DNA of 64,000 nt, taken from Pararhodobacter oceanensis. Its GTDB lineage: Bacteria > Pseudomonadota > Alphaproteobacteria > Rhodobacterales > Rhodobacteraceae. Positions 32,920 through 62,290 of this stretch are shown here, piece after piece (the first letter of the stretch is position 1; each line of letters begins with the position of its first letter). A program made the translations under genes and the position numbers. The notes under the pieces were generated by a model. The model did not search any database and was not told the DNA's origin. It saw only the letters and a program-made list of their open reading frames with translations. The stretch covers positions 496,001-560,000 of the forward strand of contig NZ_QDKM01000001.1 in the NCBI RefSeq assembly GCF_003076755.1, written 5' to 3'.

Positions 32920-33255
32920 GCAGCGATGAGGGGTGCGTCCGACACTGGGTGGGCGCGCGCGAGCTCTGAACGGCGCGCGGCACTTCAAAGCATGGGTGTT
33001 GGTTGCGCTGGGAAGGACATCGCCAAGCGCCCTCCCGAGGGGAAGGGTCGGGCGCGGCCCGTGGGTGGCACGGGCCTGAGTGTTAGCCTGCTTGTGAGTA
33101 AAGCGGAAAGGGACGCGCCCGATCCTGGGTGGGCGGATGAGCGCTTGGAACGACGCGCGGCGCTTCAAAGCATGTGTGTCGGTTGCGCTGGGAAGGACAT
33201 CGCCAAGCGCCCTCCCGGGGGGAGGGTCGGGCGCGGCCCGTGGTTCCCACGGGCC
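32920..33255 (+). repeat. Repeat family A, two tandem units (A1, A2)
   Basis: Two units with an exact 180-bp offset: the 36 bases from 33001 and from 33181 (both starting GGTTGCGCTGGGAAGGACAT) are identical. Each unit runs TGGGTGGGCG - GCGCGGC - ACTTCAAAGCAT (or GCTTCAAAGCAT) - GGTTGCGCTGGGAAGGACAT - GCCCTCCC - GGGTCGGGCGCGGCCCGTG - CACGGGCC, with internal hairpins (GCCCTCCC...GGGAGGG; GGCCCGTG...CACGGGCC). A1 about 32920-33076, A2 about 33087-33255. The same family recurs in reverse at 44487-45057 and 62133-62290. A long open frame crosses the repeats but is an artefact of composition. Confidence 0.85.
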
Positions 33256-44486: not shown

Positions 44487-45057
44487 CCCTTGGGTCGCGG
44501 GCGGCTTCGCCCCTATAAACACGCGGCCCCCTGTATCTTTATGCGCCACTGCGCAACGCTCTGGCCCGGGGGCACCCCGGGCCGCGCCCGACCCTCCCCA
44601 TGGGAGGGCGCATTGGCGATGGCGTGAGATGCTCACCCGACATCAGTGCTTTGGAGCGTAGCGCGTCGTGGCAAGGGCCGTGCGCCCACCCAGGGTCAGG
44701 CGCGTCCCTAATCGCCTTGTTCGTAGGCAGGCCATATGTCGGGCTCGTGGACACCACGGGCGGCTTTGCGCCTGCAACACGCGGACCCTGTATCTTGAAG
44801 CACCACGGTGCAACCCTCTGGCCCGTGGACACCACGGGCCGCGCCCGACCCTCCCCCCGGGAGGGCGCTTTGGCGATGTCACGCAATGCCCAACCGGCAT
44901 CAGTGCTTTCGAGTGCAGCGCGTTGTGGCAAGGACATCGGCGCCCACCCAGGCTCGGGCGCGTCCCTTATCGCTTTGCCCATAAGCAGACCATCCGTCCG
45001 GCTCGGGCATCAGTCCGGGCAGCGCGCCCACCCAGGGTCGGGCGCGGCCCTTATCGC
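44487..45057 (-). repeat. Repeat family A, two tandem long units plus a fragment (A3, A4, A5)
   Basis: Reverse-orientation copies of the element at 32920-33255. Two long units are offset by about 258 bp: A3 about 44487-44732, A4 about 44745-44990, each with an extra 75-bp lead (GGGCGGCTT...CACGCGG...CCTGTATCTT) before the core GACCCTCCC...GGGAGGGCGC, CATCAGTGCTTT and GCGCCCACCCAGG. A truncated third copy (A5, 45022-45057) keeps only the GCGCCCACCCAGGGTCGGGCG end and abuts the mraY stop codon. No gene in this interval. Confidence 0.85.
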
Positions 45058-52160: not shown

Positions 52161-52679
52161 TCAGTCTTCTGGAAGGTCAGGGAGCAGGATGGTCGGGTCG
52201 AAATCCTCGTCTTGCTGGGCAAGCCATTCTTCCTCGCGCGCCAATTCCTCGGTGGCGTAGGTTTCCGGCTTCCAGATCTGGAAATGGTCGCCCGCCGCGA
52301 TAAAGAAGGCTTTGTTTTCCAGATCCAGCTTTTTGCGCAGCTTTTGAGGCAAAACGATGCGACCGTCTTCGACCACCTGCGCATCCATCGAATGGCCGTG
52401 ATACCAGCGTTCCAGCATCTTGCGCTCTTTCGAGCCTTTTTTCATCCGCTCGATGCGGCGGTCGATCAGCTCGATCGCCTCCATCGTGTAGCATTCAAGG
52501 AAGTTGTGGCTTTCAAACCCGTAGACGATCACCAGATTGGGGCGCTGGCCTTCGGACCAATTCGGGTCGCAGGCTTCGATCACACGGCGAAACGGGGCCG
52601 GGACCGAGACCCTGCCCTTGCTATCTACCGTCTGTTCGCTCTCACTGCGAAACCTGCGCGCCACTGTTTTGCGCCTCAT
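52161..52679 (-). CDS. mraZ: MraZ, transcriptional regulator of the dcw cluster
   Basis: 172 aa, two SpoVT/AbrB-like (MraZ) domains: [17 protein letters not shown] (about 19-35) and [33 protein letters not shown] (about 104-136). In other bacteria MraZ represses its own operon through TGGG-type direct repeats. First gene of the dcw cluster; the upstream region is unusual (see 52724-52766, 52805-52816 and 52953-53307). Confidence 0.95.
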
Positions 52680-52723
52680 ATTTGATGCCCGCGATCATGG
52701 TGATTTTCGGGCCCCTAAAATTG

Positions 52724-52766
52724 GAAGTGGCGATTTGGGCTGCTGCCACGGCCCAAATCGCCTTCC
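52724..52766. repeat. Inverted repeat in the mraZ leader
   Basis: GGCGATTTGGGC (52729-52740) and GCCCAAATCGCC (52751-52762) are a perfect 12-bp inverted repeat with a 10-bp spacer; outer GGAAG/CTTCC extends it with one bulge. It lies 45-87 bp upstream of the mraZ start codon, with no T run, so it is a leader hairpin or operator rather than a terminator. Confidence 0.8.
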
Positions 52767-52804
52767 ATGACCCATCTCTGGGTGTCCAATCACGCAGACC
52801 ACCT

Positions 52805-52816
52805 GGGGGGGGGGGG
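52805..52816. repeat. Homopolymer run of 12 G
   Basis: A run of twelve G (C on the mraZ strand) about 126-137 bp upstream of mraZ. Runs this long are prone to slippage and to sequencing error. Confidence 0.85.
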
Positions 52817-52952
52817 ATTGGTGCTGCTCGTCTGCGTGTCGGATCTCGCCTTCTTCACAAGGTCGTCGTCTTCGGCGTCGCGGAATTATGTGCCTGTATG
52901 AGTTGCCTCAAGTTTTTTGTTTTGTCGTCCCGCTCTTCCGTGAGAACAGTAA

Positions 52953-53307
52953 TGGCATGGGATTTCATGGCCCGCAATGGCGTTGAGTGGCACCGGCGGC
53001 ATTTTTGTGCAGATAGAATCGGCGGATTGACGGGCAGACGCAGTTTCGCAGCGTGGTGAAACACTACATATAGACAAAATTACCCGCGACCAACACCACA
53101 CCCTGCGGAAACCGCCGCTTTAAACCCCGGCCATGAAATCCCGATCAGCCCCTGAATAGTGTTGCGCAGATAGCACACGCAATCGTGTTTGAACCCTATG
53201 CGACAGGTTATCCACAGATAAATCCGCCGCATTTTCGCGATGGGGCCAGCCGGTGCCATGTGCGGGCCATGATTTCCCAGAAAGCCGGATACGGGCCATG
53301 AAATCCC
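52953..53307. promoter_or_regulatory. Phased TGG motif blocks in the mraZ-mrp intergenic region
   Basis: Four copies of a 15-bp sequence, GGGATTTCATGGCCC: forward at 52959, and on the opposite strand at 53129-53142, 53264-53278 (GGGCCATGATTTCCC variant) and 53293-53307. In the first, TGG recurs every 10 bp: TGGGA, TGGCC, TGGCG and TGGCA start at 52958, 52968, 52978 and 52988. The reverse-strand copies at 53264-53308 show similar 10-11-bp spacing. MraZ boxes in Escherichia coli are TGGGN repeats with 5-bp spacers, so these may be MraZ sites. Confidence 0.5.
53208..53216 (+). promoter_or_regulatory. Single consensus DnaA box
   Basis: TTATCCACA, a perfect DnaA box, in the same intergenic region as the TGG motif blocks. 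Isolated, so not an origin; it might allow DnaA-linked control of mraZ. Confidence 0.4.
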
Positions 53308-53381
53308 AGCGCGGTGCCATATCCGCCCTTGCGAGGCTTGTGTAAAGCCCTCAATCGGGCCGTTCACGGGGTATACGCAGG

Positions 53382-53413
53382 AAAAACCCCGAAGGCGCGG
53401 GCCTTCGGGGTCT
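53382..53413 (-). terminator. Intrinsic terminator of mrp
   Basis: Read leftward: ACCCCGAAGGC-CCG-style loop-GCCTTCGGGGT followed by TTTTT; a perfect 11-bp stem about 58 bp after the mrp stop codon. Confidence 0.88.
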
Positions 53414-53470
53414 ATTTTGCCAATTCAGGCTGGGGCAGTGCGGTAGCGTCCCCGCATTATGGGCATCAGG

Positions 53471-54571
53471 TCAGGCGAGAAACCCGTCGATCAAGCCGCG
53501 CGCCATCACCCGATACGCCTCACCGGCGGCGGAATCGGTGGCCGCCACCGGCACCCCGCCATCGCCCGAGAGCCGCGTCTCGACATTCAGCGGCAGCGAG
53601 CCAAGGAAGGGGATGCCCTGTTTCTCGGCCTCGCGCTGCACCCCGCCATCGCCGAAGATATGCTCTTCATGGCCGCATTTGGGGCAGACGAAGGTCGACA
53701 TATTCTCGACCAGCCCGAGCACCGGCGTTTTCAGCGTCTCGAAGGCTTTGAGCGCCTTGCGCGCATCCAAGAGCGCCACATCCTGCGGGGTCGAGACAAC
53801 AATCGCGCCGGTGACGTCGAATTTCTGGCAGAGCGTCAGCTGCACATCGCCGGTGCCCGGCGGCATATCCACGATCAACAGATCCAGATCGCCCCAAGCC
53901 ACCTGCGTCATCAACTGCTGCAATGCGCCCATCAGCATCGGGCCGCGCCAGATCACCGCCTCATCCTCGGCCATCATTAACCCCAAGGAGATCATCCGCA
54001 CGCCATGCGCCACCGGCGGGATGATGGTTTTGCCGTCCGGCGAGGCGGGGCGTTTGGTGACGCCCATCATCCGGCCCTGACTGGGCCCGTAGATATCGGC
54101 GTCGACCAGCCCGACCTTCCAGCCCTCGCGCGCCATCGCGACGGCCAGATTGGCCGAGACGGTGGATTTACCGACCCCGCCCTTGCCCGAGCCGATCGCC
54201 AGAATGCGTTGCACACCGGGCACCGTCGAGGGGCCGGGTTTGGGATGGCCGCCGATTTTCAGGCTGGGCGGCTCGCCCGCGGGCGGGGCTTTGACGGCGG
54301 GTTTCGCGGCGGGGCCATGGGCGGTCATCGCCACCGAGACCCGCGCGATCCCCGGCTGTTTGCCCAAAGCGGCCTCGGCGGCGGCGCGCACCGGCTCCAT
54401 CGCCTGTGCGACCTGCGGAGATTCCACTTCGATCACGAAACGCACATTGCCGCCATCGACGACCAGCGCCCGCACCAGATCGCGGCTGACCAGCGAGCCG
54501 CCGCCGGGCACCTCCACTGTGTCAAGCGTGGCTAAAATTGACTCGCGCGTGGGCGTTGGGGTCGAGGACAT
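53471..54571 (-). CDS. mrp: Mrp/ApbC family Fe-S cluster carrier ATPase
   Basis: 366 aa. N-terminal DUF59/MIP18-like domain (residues 5-80), Pro/Ala linker, then a deviant Walker A AIGSGKGGVGKST (125-137) and GLVDADIYGPSQGRMMG. The CxxC that binds the bridging Fe-S cluster is in FVCPKCGHEE. ILIVDMPPGTGDVQLTL-like block present (LLIVDMPPGTGDVQL). The ATG at 54569-54571 has AGGAG upstream. Involved in loading Fe-S clusters onto apoproteins. Confidence 0.95.
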   Translation of the reverse strand: MSSTPTPTRESILATLDTVEVPGGGSLVSRDLVRALVVDGGNVRFVIEVESPQVAQAMEPVRAAAEAALGKQPGIARVSVAMTAHGPAAKPAVKAPPAGEPPSLKIGGHPKPGPSTVPGVQRILAIGSGKGGVGKSTVSANLAVAMAREGWKVGLVDADIYGPSQGRMMGVTKRPASPDGKTIIPPVAHGVRMISLGLMMAEDEAVIWRGPMLMGALQQLMTQVAWGDLDLLIVDMPPGTGDVQLTLCQKFDVTGAIVVSTPQDVALLDARKALKAFETLKTPVLGLVENMSTFVCPKCGHEEHIFGDGGVQREAEKQGIPFLGSLPLNVETRLSGDGGVPVAATDSAAGEAYRVMARGLIDGFLA

Positions 54572-54878
54572 TGCAAATCTCTCCTGTCGGTTCACTGCTC
54601 AGGCCGTAACCTGTTCAAAATTCCTTGGCAAACAAGGTCCAAACGCCGGTTTATCGGATCAAGCCTGTTGATTAGCTTGCGTTTTTTTATCCGGCTGGTC
54701 AAAAACGAAATGGAACCCCCTGAAAACGCCCAAAACTTCAACCGCGTATGCCATGCGGTTTCTGCATAGCGGCATTGCGACACAGGGGGATTGTGCATCT
54801 GCAGCATAAGGTCCATCTCTGTGTCACCGGGAAGGAAGACATAACATTTTCCCCGGTTGTGAAGAAAGAGAGAGTTCC

Positions 54879-55100
54879 ATGGCTTATGCATCCGTTCGTC
54901 AGAACCGCGGCTTTTTGGTCCTGAACACCCTGCGCGACGGCTTTGCCGCGCTGAGCGCCGCCTGGTCGCGCTCGCGCACGTTTACGCGCACCTATAACGA
55001 GCTGAACGCCCTGAGCACCCGCGATTTGCAGGACCTCGGCATTCACCGCAGCATGATTTCGCGTCTGGCCCATGAGGCCGCTTACGGTCGCGACAGCTGA
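54879..55100 (+). CDS. DUF1127 small protein (CcaF-like) upstream of small RNA array
   Basis: 73 aa. The C-terminal half, RTYNELNALSTRDLQDLGIHRSMISRLAHEAAYGR (about 36-70), is the Arg-rich DUF1127 motif. In Rhodobacter sphaeroides a DUF1127 gene (RSP_6037) is co-transcribed with the CcsR1-4 small RNAs under RpoHI/RpoHII stress control; the same layout is seen here. The protein is thought to bind RNA and affect maturation of such small RNAs; that role is known only from relatives. A GAGAG lies just before the ATG. The 307-bp region upstream to mrp should hold its stress promoter, which I could not pin down. Confidence 0.9.
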   Translation: MAYASVRQNRGFLVLNTLRDGFAALSAAWSRSRTFTRTYNELNALSTRDLQDLGIHRSMISRLAHEAAYGRDS

Positions 55101-55134
55101 TTGAGATAGCGGGCCCTTGGGGCCTGCACAAAGA

Positions 55135-55163
55135 ACGACAACGCCCCTCCCTGCGTTGATCGT
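55135..55163 (+). ncRNA. CcsR-like hairpin 1
   Basis: CAACGC / GCGTTG with extra ACGA / TCGT pairs across a one-base bulge; loop CCCTCCCT. Confidence 0.7.
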
Positions 55164-55167
55164 GACC

Positions 55168-55201
55168 GGAACCGCCGCCTCCTCCTCCCTGCGGCTGTTC
55201 C
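55168..55201 (+). ncRNA. CcsR-like hairpin 2
   Basis: GGAACCGCCGC / GCGGCTGTTCC, 11 positions with one mismatch; loop CTCCTCCTCCCT. Confidence 0.8.
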
Positions 55202-55247
55202 ACAATGTTGCTAGCGTCTGATCCGCAGATCGGGTCGCAGGCACTCC

Positions 55248-55282
55248 GGCACGGTTGCACCTCCTCCCTTTGCAACCGTGCC
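55248..55282 (+). ncRNA. CcsR-like hairpin 3
   Basis: GGCACGGTTGCA / TGCAACCGTGCC, perfect 12-bp stem; loop CCTCCTCCCTT. Followed at once by the palindrome CCCCGAATTCGGGG. Confidence 0.88.
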
Positions 55283-55312
55283 CCGAATTCGGGGTTAACG
55301 CCCCACCGGAAC

Positions 55313-55343
55313 GCGGCCCCCGTCCCTCCCACGGGGTCACCGC
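55313..55343 (+). ncRNA. CcsR-like hairpin 4
   Basis: CCCCGT / ACGGGG plus outer GCGG / CCGC across a small internal loop; loop CCCTCCC. Confidence 0.65.
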
Positions 55344-55347
55344 TCAG

Positions 55348-55380
55348 GCGCGACGATCATCTCCTCCCGGATCGTCGCGC
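55348..55380 (+). ncRNA. CcsR-like hairpin 5
   Basis: GCGCGACGATC / GATCGTCGCGC, perfect 11-bp stem; loop ATCTCCTCCCG. Confidence 0.88.
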
Positions 55381-55430
55381 CCAAAATATCAGGGCCCCGA
55401 TCCCGATCGGATTGGCGGGCCCAGCGAGAC

Positions 55431-55462
55431 GCGCGGGTTGGACCTCCTCCCCTGACCTGCGC
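55431..55462 (+). ncRNA. CcsR-like hairpin 6
   Basis: GCGCGGGT / ACCTGCGC with one G-U pair; loop contains CCTCCTCCCC. Confidence 0.75.
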
Positions 55463-55468
55463 CAAGAG

Positions 55469-55504
55469 CGCGGCTACCGATCCTCCCCGGTAGCCGCGTT
55501 TTTT
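55469..55504 (+). terminator. CcsR-like hairpin 7 and terminator of the array
   Basis: CGCGGCTACC / GGTAGCCGCG, perfect 10-bp stem, loop GATCCTCCCC, followed by six T. Serves both as last motif hairpin and as intrinsic terminator. Confidence 0.9.
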
Positions 55505-55539
55505 CATTGCGAAATCAGAAGTTTAAGACGCGCCCCTTC

Positions 55540-62132: not shown

Positions 62133-62290
62133 TGGCTCGCACGGGGGAACCCCGGGCCGCGCCCGACCCTCACCCCGGGAGGGCGCTTTGGCGAAATTCG
62201 GGGCGGCTCATCCGACATGGATGCTTTGAGGTGCACCGCGTTGTGGCGCCGACACCTGCGCCCACCCAAGGGTCGGGCGCGGCCCTTTGC
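62133..62290 (-). repeat. Repeat family A, single unit (A6)
   Basis: Reverse-orientation copy between recA and alaS: TGGCTCGCACGGGG, CCCGGGCCGCGCCCGACCCT, GGGAGGGCGCTTTGGCGA, ATGGATGCTTTGAGGTGCAC, GCGTTGTGGC and GCGCCCACCC...GGGTCGGGCGCGGCCC. The GCTTTGAGGTGC block corresponds to the GCTTTGGAGCG and GCTTTCGAGTGC blocks of the other copies. Confidence 0.85.

Follow-up and report, generated by a model that had tools for sequence, protein, structure and literature searches.

A partly eroded ccaF1-CcsR-type hairpin array in Pararhodobacter oceanensis and its predicted ribosome-binding-site targets

The cuckoo RNA family and its CIN1 locus are reportedly the subject of work by Reinkensmeier and Giegerich (2015). 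As they appear in excerpts of PMC10253847 and PMC10746234, these RNAs combine adjacent hairpins, a conserved loop motif, variable stems and a DUF1127 neighbour. Rhodobacter (Cereibacter) sphaeroides has the ccaF1-CcsR1-4 locus (Rfam RF02791), in which four units of two hairpins each, with CCUCC loops and a terminator-like end, lie behind a DUF1127 gene. According to passages of PMC10253847, ccaF1 and the CcsR RNAs are co-transcribed and their maturation depends on CcaF1. The CcsR targets reported in parts of PMC8307010, PMC8625941 and PMC7074977 are flhR, the pyruvate dehydrogenase complex and the glutathione pool; solute-binding proteins do not figure among them there.

In Sinorhizobium, NfeR1 (ar14, RF02344) has three hairpins and a transcript of its own, driven by an RpoD-type promoter; through its redundant CCUCCUCCC loops ntrB is silenced at the translation start, and the predicted targets of NfeR1 are mostly ABC transport genes (excerpts of PMC10746234). 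Regulation of ABC transporter mRNAs of the anti-Shine-Dalgarno type is also described for AbcR1 and AbcR2 (parts of PMC3712013 and PMC10746234). Neither a pair-count rule nor a CcsR regulon of solute-binding proteins is stated in the excerpts of PMC10253847, PMC8307010, PMC8625941, PMC3927594, PMC10746234, PMC7074977 and PMC12218461 that form the literature considered here, Reinkensmeier and Giegerich 2015, Billenkamp 2015 and Grutzner 2021 lying outside this scope.

The locus and its described relatives

Within the 64,000-nucleotide stretch of P. oceanensis DNA that was analysed (the window), positions 54879-55100 (+) encode a 73-aa DUF1127 protein (Pfam PF06568, E 7.7e-10), which is the counterpart of CcaF1. 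By this protein, the closest named relatives are Pararhodobacter species; the protein of Pararhodobacter zhoushanensis is 67% identical. Seven hairpins with CCUCC loops had been placed behind this gene in a preliminary description of the sequence, and a motif hairpin scan recovered all seven, with a CCUCCC core, at 55135-55503 (Table 1). They lie directly 3' of the gene, the first beginning at 55135 and the stop codon ending at 55100, and in the rest of the 64 kb the same scan gave six more, five of them on the + strand and one on the - strand. Folding of 55101-55510, which had been proposed as a check, gave -207 kcal/mol (z = -8.3), and none of 100 shuffles was as good. The last hairpin is likely to be the terminator, as had been suggested: it is GC-rich and runs into TTTTTT, though it was unlisted in a simple terminator scan, which gave a single site, on the - strand (shuffles, mean 1.6).

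The assignment to the CcsR/cuckoo family also stands. Rfam CcsR1 matches 55426-55504 with an E value of 2.8e-11 and 50.5 bits, below the gathering cut-off of 65.3, which four of the eight relative loci tested pass, and ar14 (RF02344) matches twice with 41.8 and 36.7 bits, below its cut-off of 58.8. Together with the DUF1127 neighbour and the synteny, the CcsR1 match supports the array as the counterpart of R. sphaeroides ccaF1-CcsR1-4 ("cuckoo RNA"). Of the named loci (best 80 of 314), 79 had a tblastn match to mrp in the 2.5 kb flanks, 51 to uvrD and 45 to mraZ. In Cereibacter-type loci (L059, L068, L078, L081) the gene is flanked by mraZ, mrp and uvrD, an orthologous position; the sharing of this neighbourhood with ccaF1-CcsR1-4 is judged from the fetched Cereibacter loci and not from R. 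sphaeroides itself. In the window, mraZ and mrp (52161-54595) adjoin the array as in the Cereibacter loci. In Rhodobacter mraZ heads this gene cluster, and two small-RNA loci may be neighbours here.

The locus itself is of a known kind; its target code is a prediction. It differs from ccaF1-CcsR1-4 in that one of the eight loops is lost and three are shortened, and in that the best CcsR1 match is the last pair. Several loops lack the full nonamer of the cuckoo RNA/CIN1 family. Unlike NfeR1, the pairs lie in the 3' UTR of the DUF1127 gene, and the seeds of AbcR1 and AbcR2 are similar to the loops but not identical.

Table 1. Features of the DUF1127 locus (positions in the window)
Feature	Position	Strand	Remarks
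Conserved upstream block	54762..54818	+	CTGCATAGCGGCATTGC (54762), TTGTGCATCTGCAGCA (54791-54806), CCATCT (54813); alignment of 16 genus loci
Ribosome-binding-site region of the DUF1127 gene	54864..54878	+	GAAAGAGAGAG, without GGAGG
Leading hairpin, no motif	55109..55127	+	just 3' of the stop codon; similar GGGCC..GGCC in most aligned genus relatives
Hairpin 1, pair 1 weak	55135..55163	+	shortened loop CCCUCCCU; aligned relatives, CUCCUCCUCCCU
Hairpin 2, pair 1 strong	55168..55201	+	loop CUCCUCCUCCCU
Degenerate hairpin, pair 2 weak	55209..55242	+	stem preserved, motif gone, loop CGCA
Hairpin 3, pair 2 strong	55248..55282	+	loop CCUCCUCCCUU; two double paired-base changes in the genus
Hairpin 4, pair 3 weak	55315..55338	+	shortened loop CCCUCCC
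Hairpin 5, pair 3 strong	55347..55381	+	loop AUCUCCUCCCG
Spacer hairpin, no motif, between pairs 3 and 4	55392..55422	+	z -2.4
Hairpin 6, pair 4 weak	55431..55462	+	loop ACCUCCUCCC; 5' half of the CcsR1-like match
Hairpin 7, pair 4 strong, likely terminator	55464..55503	+	loop AUCCUCCC, T run

Hairpin pairs and loop loss

DUF1127 loci were taken from the genus (17 of 18 genomes matched), from named contigs (best 80 of 314) and from a family sample of one genome per genus, in which 121 of 149 genomes had a DUF1127 match and 118 were fetched (G046, G078 and G150 were left out). Among these 118 genomes, 82 have an array of at least four hairpins, 18 have one to three, and 18 have none at the fetched places. 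In the family sample, which includes this genome, the 700-nt stretches 3' of 136 DUF1127 genes hold 706 motif hairpins in sense orientation; the controls for the same genes gave 24 upstream, 49 when the sequence was reversed and 1 in antisense. Motif hairpins behind DUF1127 genes are not a product of chance.

The 166 distinct arrays of at least four hairpins, that of the window included, range in size from 4 to 17, and the number is even in 117 of them (P 1.3e-7). When the even arrays are divided into successive pairs, the second hairpin is stronger on average in 114/117 (102/117 without the last pair), the mean weak-strong difference being 5.6 kcal/mol and the largest of 1000 permutations 1.8. 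Gaps are shorter within than between pairs in 110/117 even arrays, with medians of 6 and 32 nt. A run of at least four T accompanies the last hairpin in 119 of the 166 arrays and 32 of the 1143 inner hairpins. Rfam CcsR1 gives an 83-nt match in Luteovulum azotoformans, Cereibacter johrii and C. changlensis (106.2, 106.2 and 94.1 bits, respectively), which in each case covers exactly the first hairpin pair behind the DUF1127 gene. From the even counts, the weak/strong order, the gaps and this span, it follows that a two-hairpin RNA is the unit of the array. Growth by whole units is shown by the 14-hairpin array of locus L111, which has the same CcsR1 score and contains five identical 47-nt pair segments spaced by 114-115 nt. 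The genus alone would suggest a rule of 4, 8 or 12 hairpins; this failed, arrays of 6 and 10 being common. The notion of seven hairpins as an expansion was rejected in view of the size range; the enlargement over the four R. sphaeroides RNAs that had been implied disappears because a CcsR1 match covers a pair, so that the window also has four units.

The count of seven was itself incomplete, having missed an eighth hairpin with a CGCA loop at 55209-55242. Its inner stem comprises 10 pairs with a bulge, and among 200 shuffles of 55210-55242 an equally good fold was reached by 4. The corresponding place holds motif hairpin 3 in nine aligned genus relatives; the array therefore consists of eight hairpin places, forming four weak-plus-strong pairs. 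The three pairs with both motifs have internal gaps of 4, 8 and 1 nt, and the gaps between pairs are 32 nt (pairs 2-3) and 49 nt (pairs 3-4). Of the 10 aligned genus loci, 8 have CGAATTC after the strong hairpin of pair 2 (55284-55290 in the window); this sequence could be an RNase E site or the relic of a duplication boundary.

The stems had been described as unrelated. Compared with one another in the window they are indeed unlike, but the genus shows recognisable conservation of the stems of pairs 1-2. In the strong stem of pair 2, pairing is kept with two double changes among the six distinct sequences that ten genus loci provide. This covariation, reached by 17 of 500 shuffles, gives modest support to conserved pairing. 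Strong-stem similarity is 0.52 within and 0.42 between arrays.

Exact CCUCCUCCC is present in three window loops only, at 55181, 55260 and 55443 (hairpins 2, 3 and 6). Hairpin 5, which had been classed with them, carries UCUCCUCCC, while hairpins 1, 4 and 7 have only CCUCCC and were rightly called short. Thus, of the eight hairpins, three have exact CCUCCUCCC, one more has CUCCUCCC, three have CCUCCC and one has none. The order is short-long-long-short-long-long-short rather than the alternation that had been proposed. Nor is a two-type architecture supported, as short loops are rare elsewhere and occur on weak (19/440), strong (11/323) and terminal (8/117) hairpins of even arrays alike. Short CCUCCC-only loops, a class that is approximate because loop borders depend on the greedy stem of the scan, amount to 38/880 in the 117 even arrays (the 49 odd arrays, the window's among them, being left out) versus 3/7 in the window (binomial P 0.002). 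In the comparison of loops with relatives that had been called for, CCUCCUCCC proved to be retained by nine aligned relatives at hairpin places 1 and 3, so the pattern of the window looks like loss and not like another family. It is best read as lineage-specific erosion of a four-unit array. Single-motif loss is not confined to the window: the motif hairpin of the second place is missing from the relative L007. Because two of the weak hairpins of pairs 1-3 have shortened loops and the third has lost its motif, the function of the window's array may be fading.

Candidate promoter and ribosome-binding site of the DUF1127 gene

The block upstream of the gene is conserved in the genus as CATAGC..GCATTG and TTGTGC..GCAGCA, with CCATCT in most loci, and the arrangement TTGTGC-16-CCATCT is conserved. 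It is a candidate stress promoter; a sigma-70 scan gave no match. The TGC-rich part might contain a PhaR-type operator. By analogy with R. sphaeroides, for which the assignment stands in a figure legend of PMC10253847, the sigma factor would be RpoHI/RpoHII. Exact TTGTGCANNNGCAGCA occurs twice in the genome, each time before a DUF1127 gene; with one mismatch there are 15 further matches, and 4 in the reversed control. The second DUF1127 gene (G000 C5:10688-10974, loci L023 and L249) has the TTGTGCANNNGCAGCA upstream element and is devoid of a hairpin array.

A GAAAGAG-like sequence precedes the DUF1127 gene in the closest relatives. GGAGG was found before none of 163 DUF1127 genes with arrays and none of 29 without, so that an avoidance of GGAGG special to array-linked genes is unsupported. 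GGAG or GAGG precedes 48/163 array-linked versus 14/29 array-less genes (P 0.054, a comparison of these two gene sets only). At the gene's own site, duplex energies are -2.9 to -6.4 kcal/mol for the loops and -9.9 kcal/mol for the 16S tail (isolated loop letters, hairpin constraint ignored). As the 16S tail pairs there more strongly than the loops, silencing of its own ccaF1 gene by the array is unlikely.

Unrelated to the array, a REP-like palindrome (GCCCGACCCTC..GGGAGGGCGC) lies at 33207-33232 (-), 44586-44611 (+), 44843-44868 (+) and 62161-62186 (+) of the window. It has 171 matches in the genome with at most two mismatches (reversed pattern, 0), and many among the matches listed are grouped about 180-270 nt apart.

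Predicted targets and alternative readings

Conservation of the CCTCCC core is by construction, because the hairpin scan demands CCTCCC in the loop. In arrays selected in this way, 1268 of 1283 CUCCU loops continue with CCC, these last three bases not being demanded. The 16S tail continues with UUU. With their near-invariant CCC, the loops are thus predicted to be a better match for GGGAGGAG ribosome-binding sites than the ribosome is. Mimicry of the 16S 3' end by the loops was rejected, as 9 loops have CCUCCUU and 1285 have CUCCUCC. At 12 GGGAGGAG sites, duplex energies are -16 to -18 kcal/mol for full loops, -12 to -13 for shortened loops, -1.7 for the CGCA loop and -11.6 for the 16S tail; at 8 AAGGAGG sites they are -9.6 to -11.0 for the loops and -11.2 for the 16S tail (all with isolated letters, hairpin constraint ignored). 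By these energies, erosion should weaken three loops and remove one.

The genome holds 14 GGGAGGAG sites with an ATG at a distance of 2-10 nt downstream, against 4 in the reversed control. Of the 13 ORFs kept (an 11-aa ORF was dropped), seven encode periplasmic solute-binding proteins: three DctP, two Peripla_BP_4, one Peripla_BP_6 and one TctC. The other six are two acyl-CoA dehydrogenases, an AMP-binding enzyme, an FAD oxidoreductase, an S15-type hydrolase and one unmatched ORF (96 aa, without a Pfam match). Behind AAGGAGG, solute-binding proteins are 1/23 (Fisher P 0.0013; 30 of 51 sites fetched, 23 ORFs of at least 60 aa kept). Among relatives, they are 9/26 in a genus sample (28 new loci, two without an ORF found) and 8/20 in G001 (20 of 42 sites taken). 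Where no array was found, they are 4/23 in G159 (23 of 23 sites) and 0/12 in G147 (14 of 34 sites, ORFs below 60 aa dropped). Array absence means no DUF1127 match, or a match without hairpins, plus zero motif pairs, a score also given to the window's genome despite its array; G159 is 84% complete. Excluding from the genus sample two loci that repeat G001 genes and one in G016 (no array known), the sum for array genomes is 24/56 (7+9+8 of 13+23+20) versus 4/35 for genomes where no array was found (P 0.002), orthologues in related genomes not being independent. Three G151 sites were left out of the target sets. This genome and three relatives (L240, L293, L309, L312) share a solute-binding protein of branched-chain type with GGGAGGAGAACC(A/G)ATG, and the L240 gene carries GGGAGGAGAACCAATG.

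In the 132 of 149 genomes at least 90% complete, GGGAGGAG-ATG sites correlate with arrays (rho 0.39). After removal of the sites in fetched loci, rho is 0.375 for site number per Mb versus exact-motif pairs and 0.16 (P 0.06) versus hairpin count, all uncorrected for tree or GC; the correlation thus varies with the way in which arrays are counted. The sites number from 1 to 68 per family-sample genome; this genome has 14, G001 42, G004 48 and G003, with seven motif hairpins, just 13. The composition of the predicted target set suggests that the loops may act on nutrient-uptake genes.

The locus is probably a partly eroded ccaF1-CcsR locus with four two-hairpin RNAs whose loops block GGGAGGAG sites. 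The anti-Shine-Dalgarno character that had been attributed to the loops is supported by duplex complementarity, target composition and the NfeR1 mechanism (excerpts of PMC10746234). A single transcript, presumably stress-driven, would yield the DUF1127 protein and four two-hairpin small RNAs, which would be cut from the ccaF1 3' UTR by RNase E with CcaF1, as reported for R. sphaeroides. By base pairing of the exposed CUCCUCCC loops with GGGAGGAG ribosome-binding sites, translation would then be blocked; judging from complementarity and target composition, this would affect chiefly solute-binding proteins and catabolic enzymes, so that uptake and catabolism would fall during stress. With redundant loops, the number of units may set the dose. 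In this lineage, with one loop lost and three shortened, pairing would be weakened and not abolished.

The loops might instead serve mainly as decoys titrating a CCUCC-binding protein (CcaF1, Hfq or a ribosome-assembly factor), mRNA pairing being secondary. The 4 to 17 near-identical loops per transcript would suit such a role, as would the binding of RNA by CcaF1, its effect on CcsR levels and the interaction of CcsR RNAs with Hfq described in parts of PMC10253847 and PMC8307010. We consider it improbable, given the scarcity of 16S-like CCUCCUU loops, an argument against imitation of the 16S end, and the excess of solute-binding proteins behind the exact loop complement. Still less credible is a mainly cis-acting array, which would stabilise the 3' end of the ccaF1 mRNA or serve its processing, with the loop sequence as recognition element. 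The joint transcription and CcaF1-dependent maturation described for R. sphaeroides (passages of PMC10253847) agree with it, but the hairpin number behind the same gene varies widely, from 4 to 17, and CcsR RNAs are described as targeting flhR mRNA (excerpt of PMC8307010).

The link between GGGAGGAG and solute-binding proteins could also be a habit of translation strength unrelated to the array, which would be compatible with the locus assignment. The 4/23 of G159, where no array was found, and the weak correlation with hairpin count point that way. This explanation is on the unlikely side, as one of the 23 ORFs behind the strong AAGGAGG sites of the same genome encodes a solute-binding protein, G147, again with no array found, has 0/12, and the array genomes exceed those where none was found (with the caveat on related genomes given above).

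Beyond the silencing of GGGAGGAG sites by this array, a wider proposal is put forward tentatively and may well not hold in full. DUF1127-linked cuckoo arrays of the Rhodobacteraceae would be copy-number-tuned silencers of a regulon written in ribosome-binding sites, in which the CCC of the loops outcompetes the ribosome at GGGAGGAG sites of solute-binding and catabolic genes, sparing AAGGAGG sites and the array's own gene. Units would be gained and lost as two-hairpin blocks, and the erosion seen here would be a natural loss-of-dose experiment. The useful outcome is the comparative picture of a two-hairpin unit, array sizes of 4 to 17 and a near-invariant CCC that separates the loops from a 16S mimic. 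The predicted target list would link the CcsR RNAs of Rhodobacteraceae with the transporter regulation of rhizobial NfeR1/AbcR.
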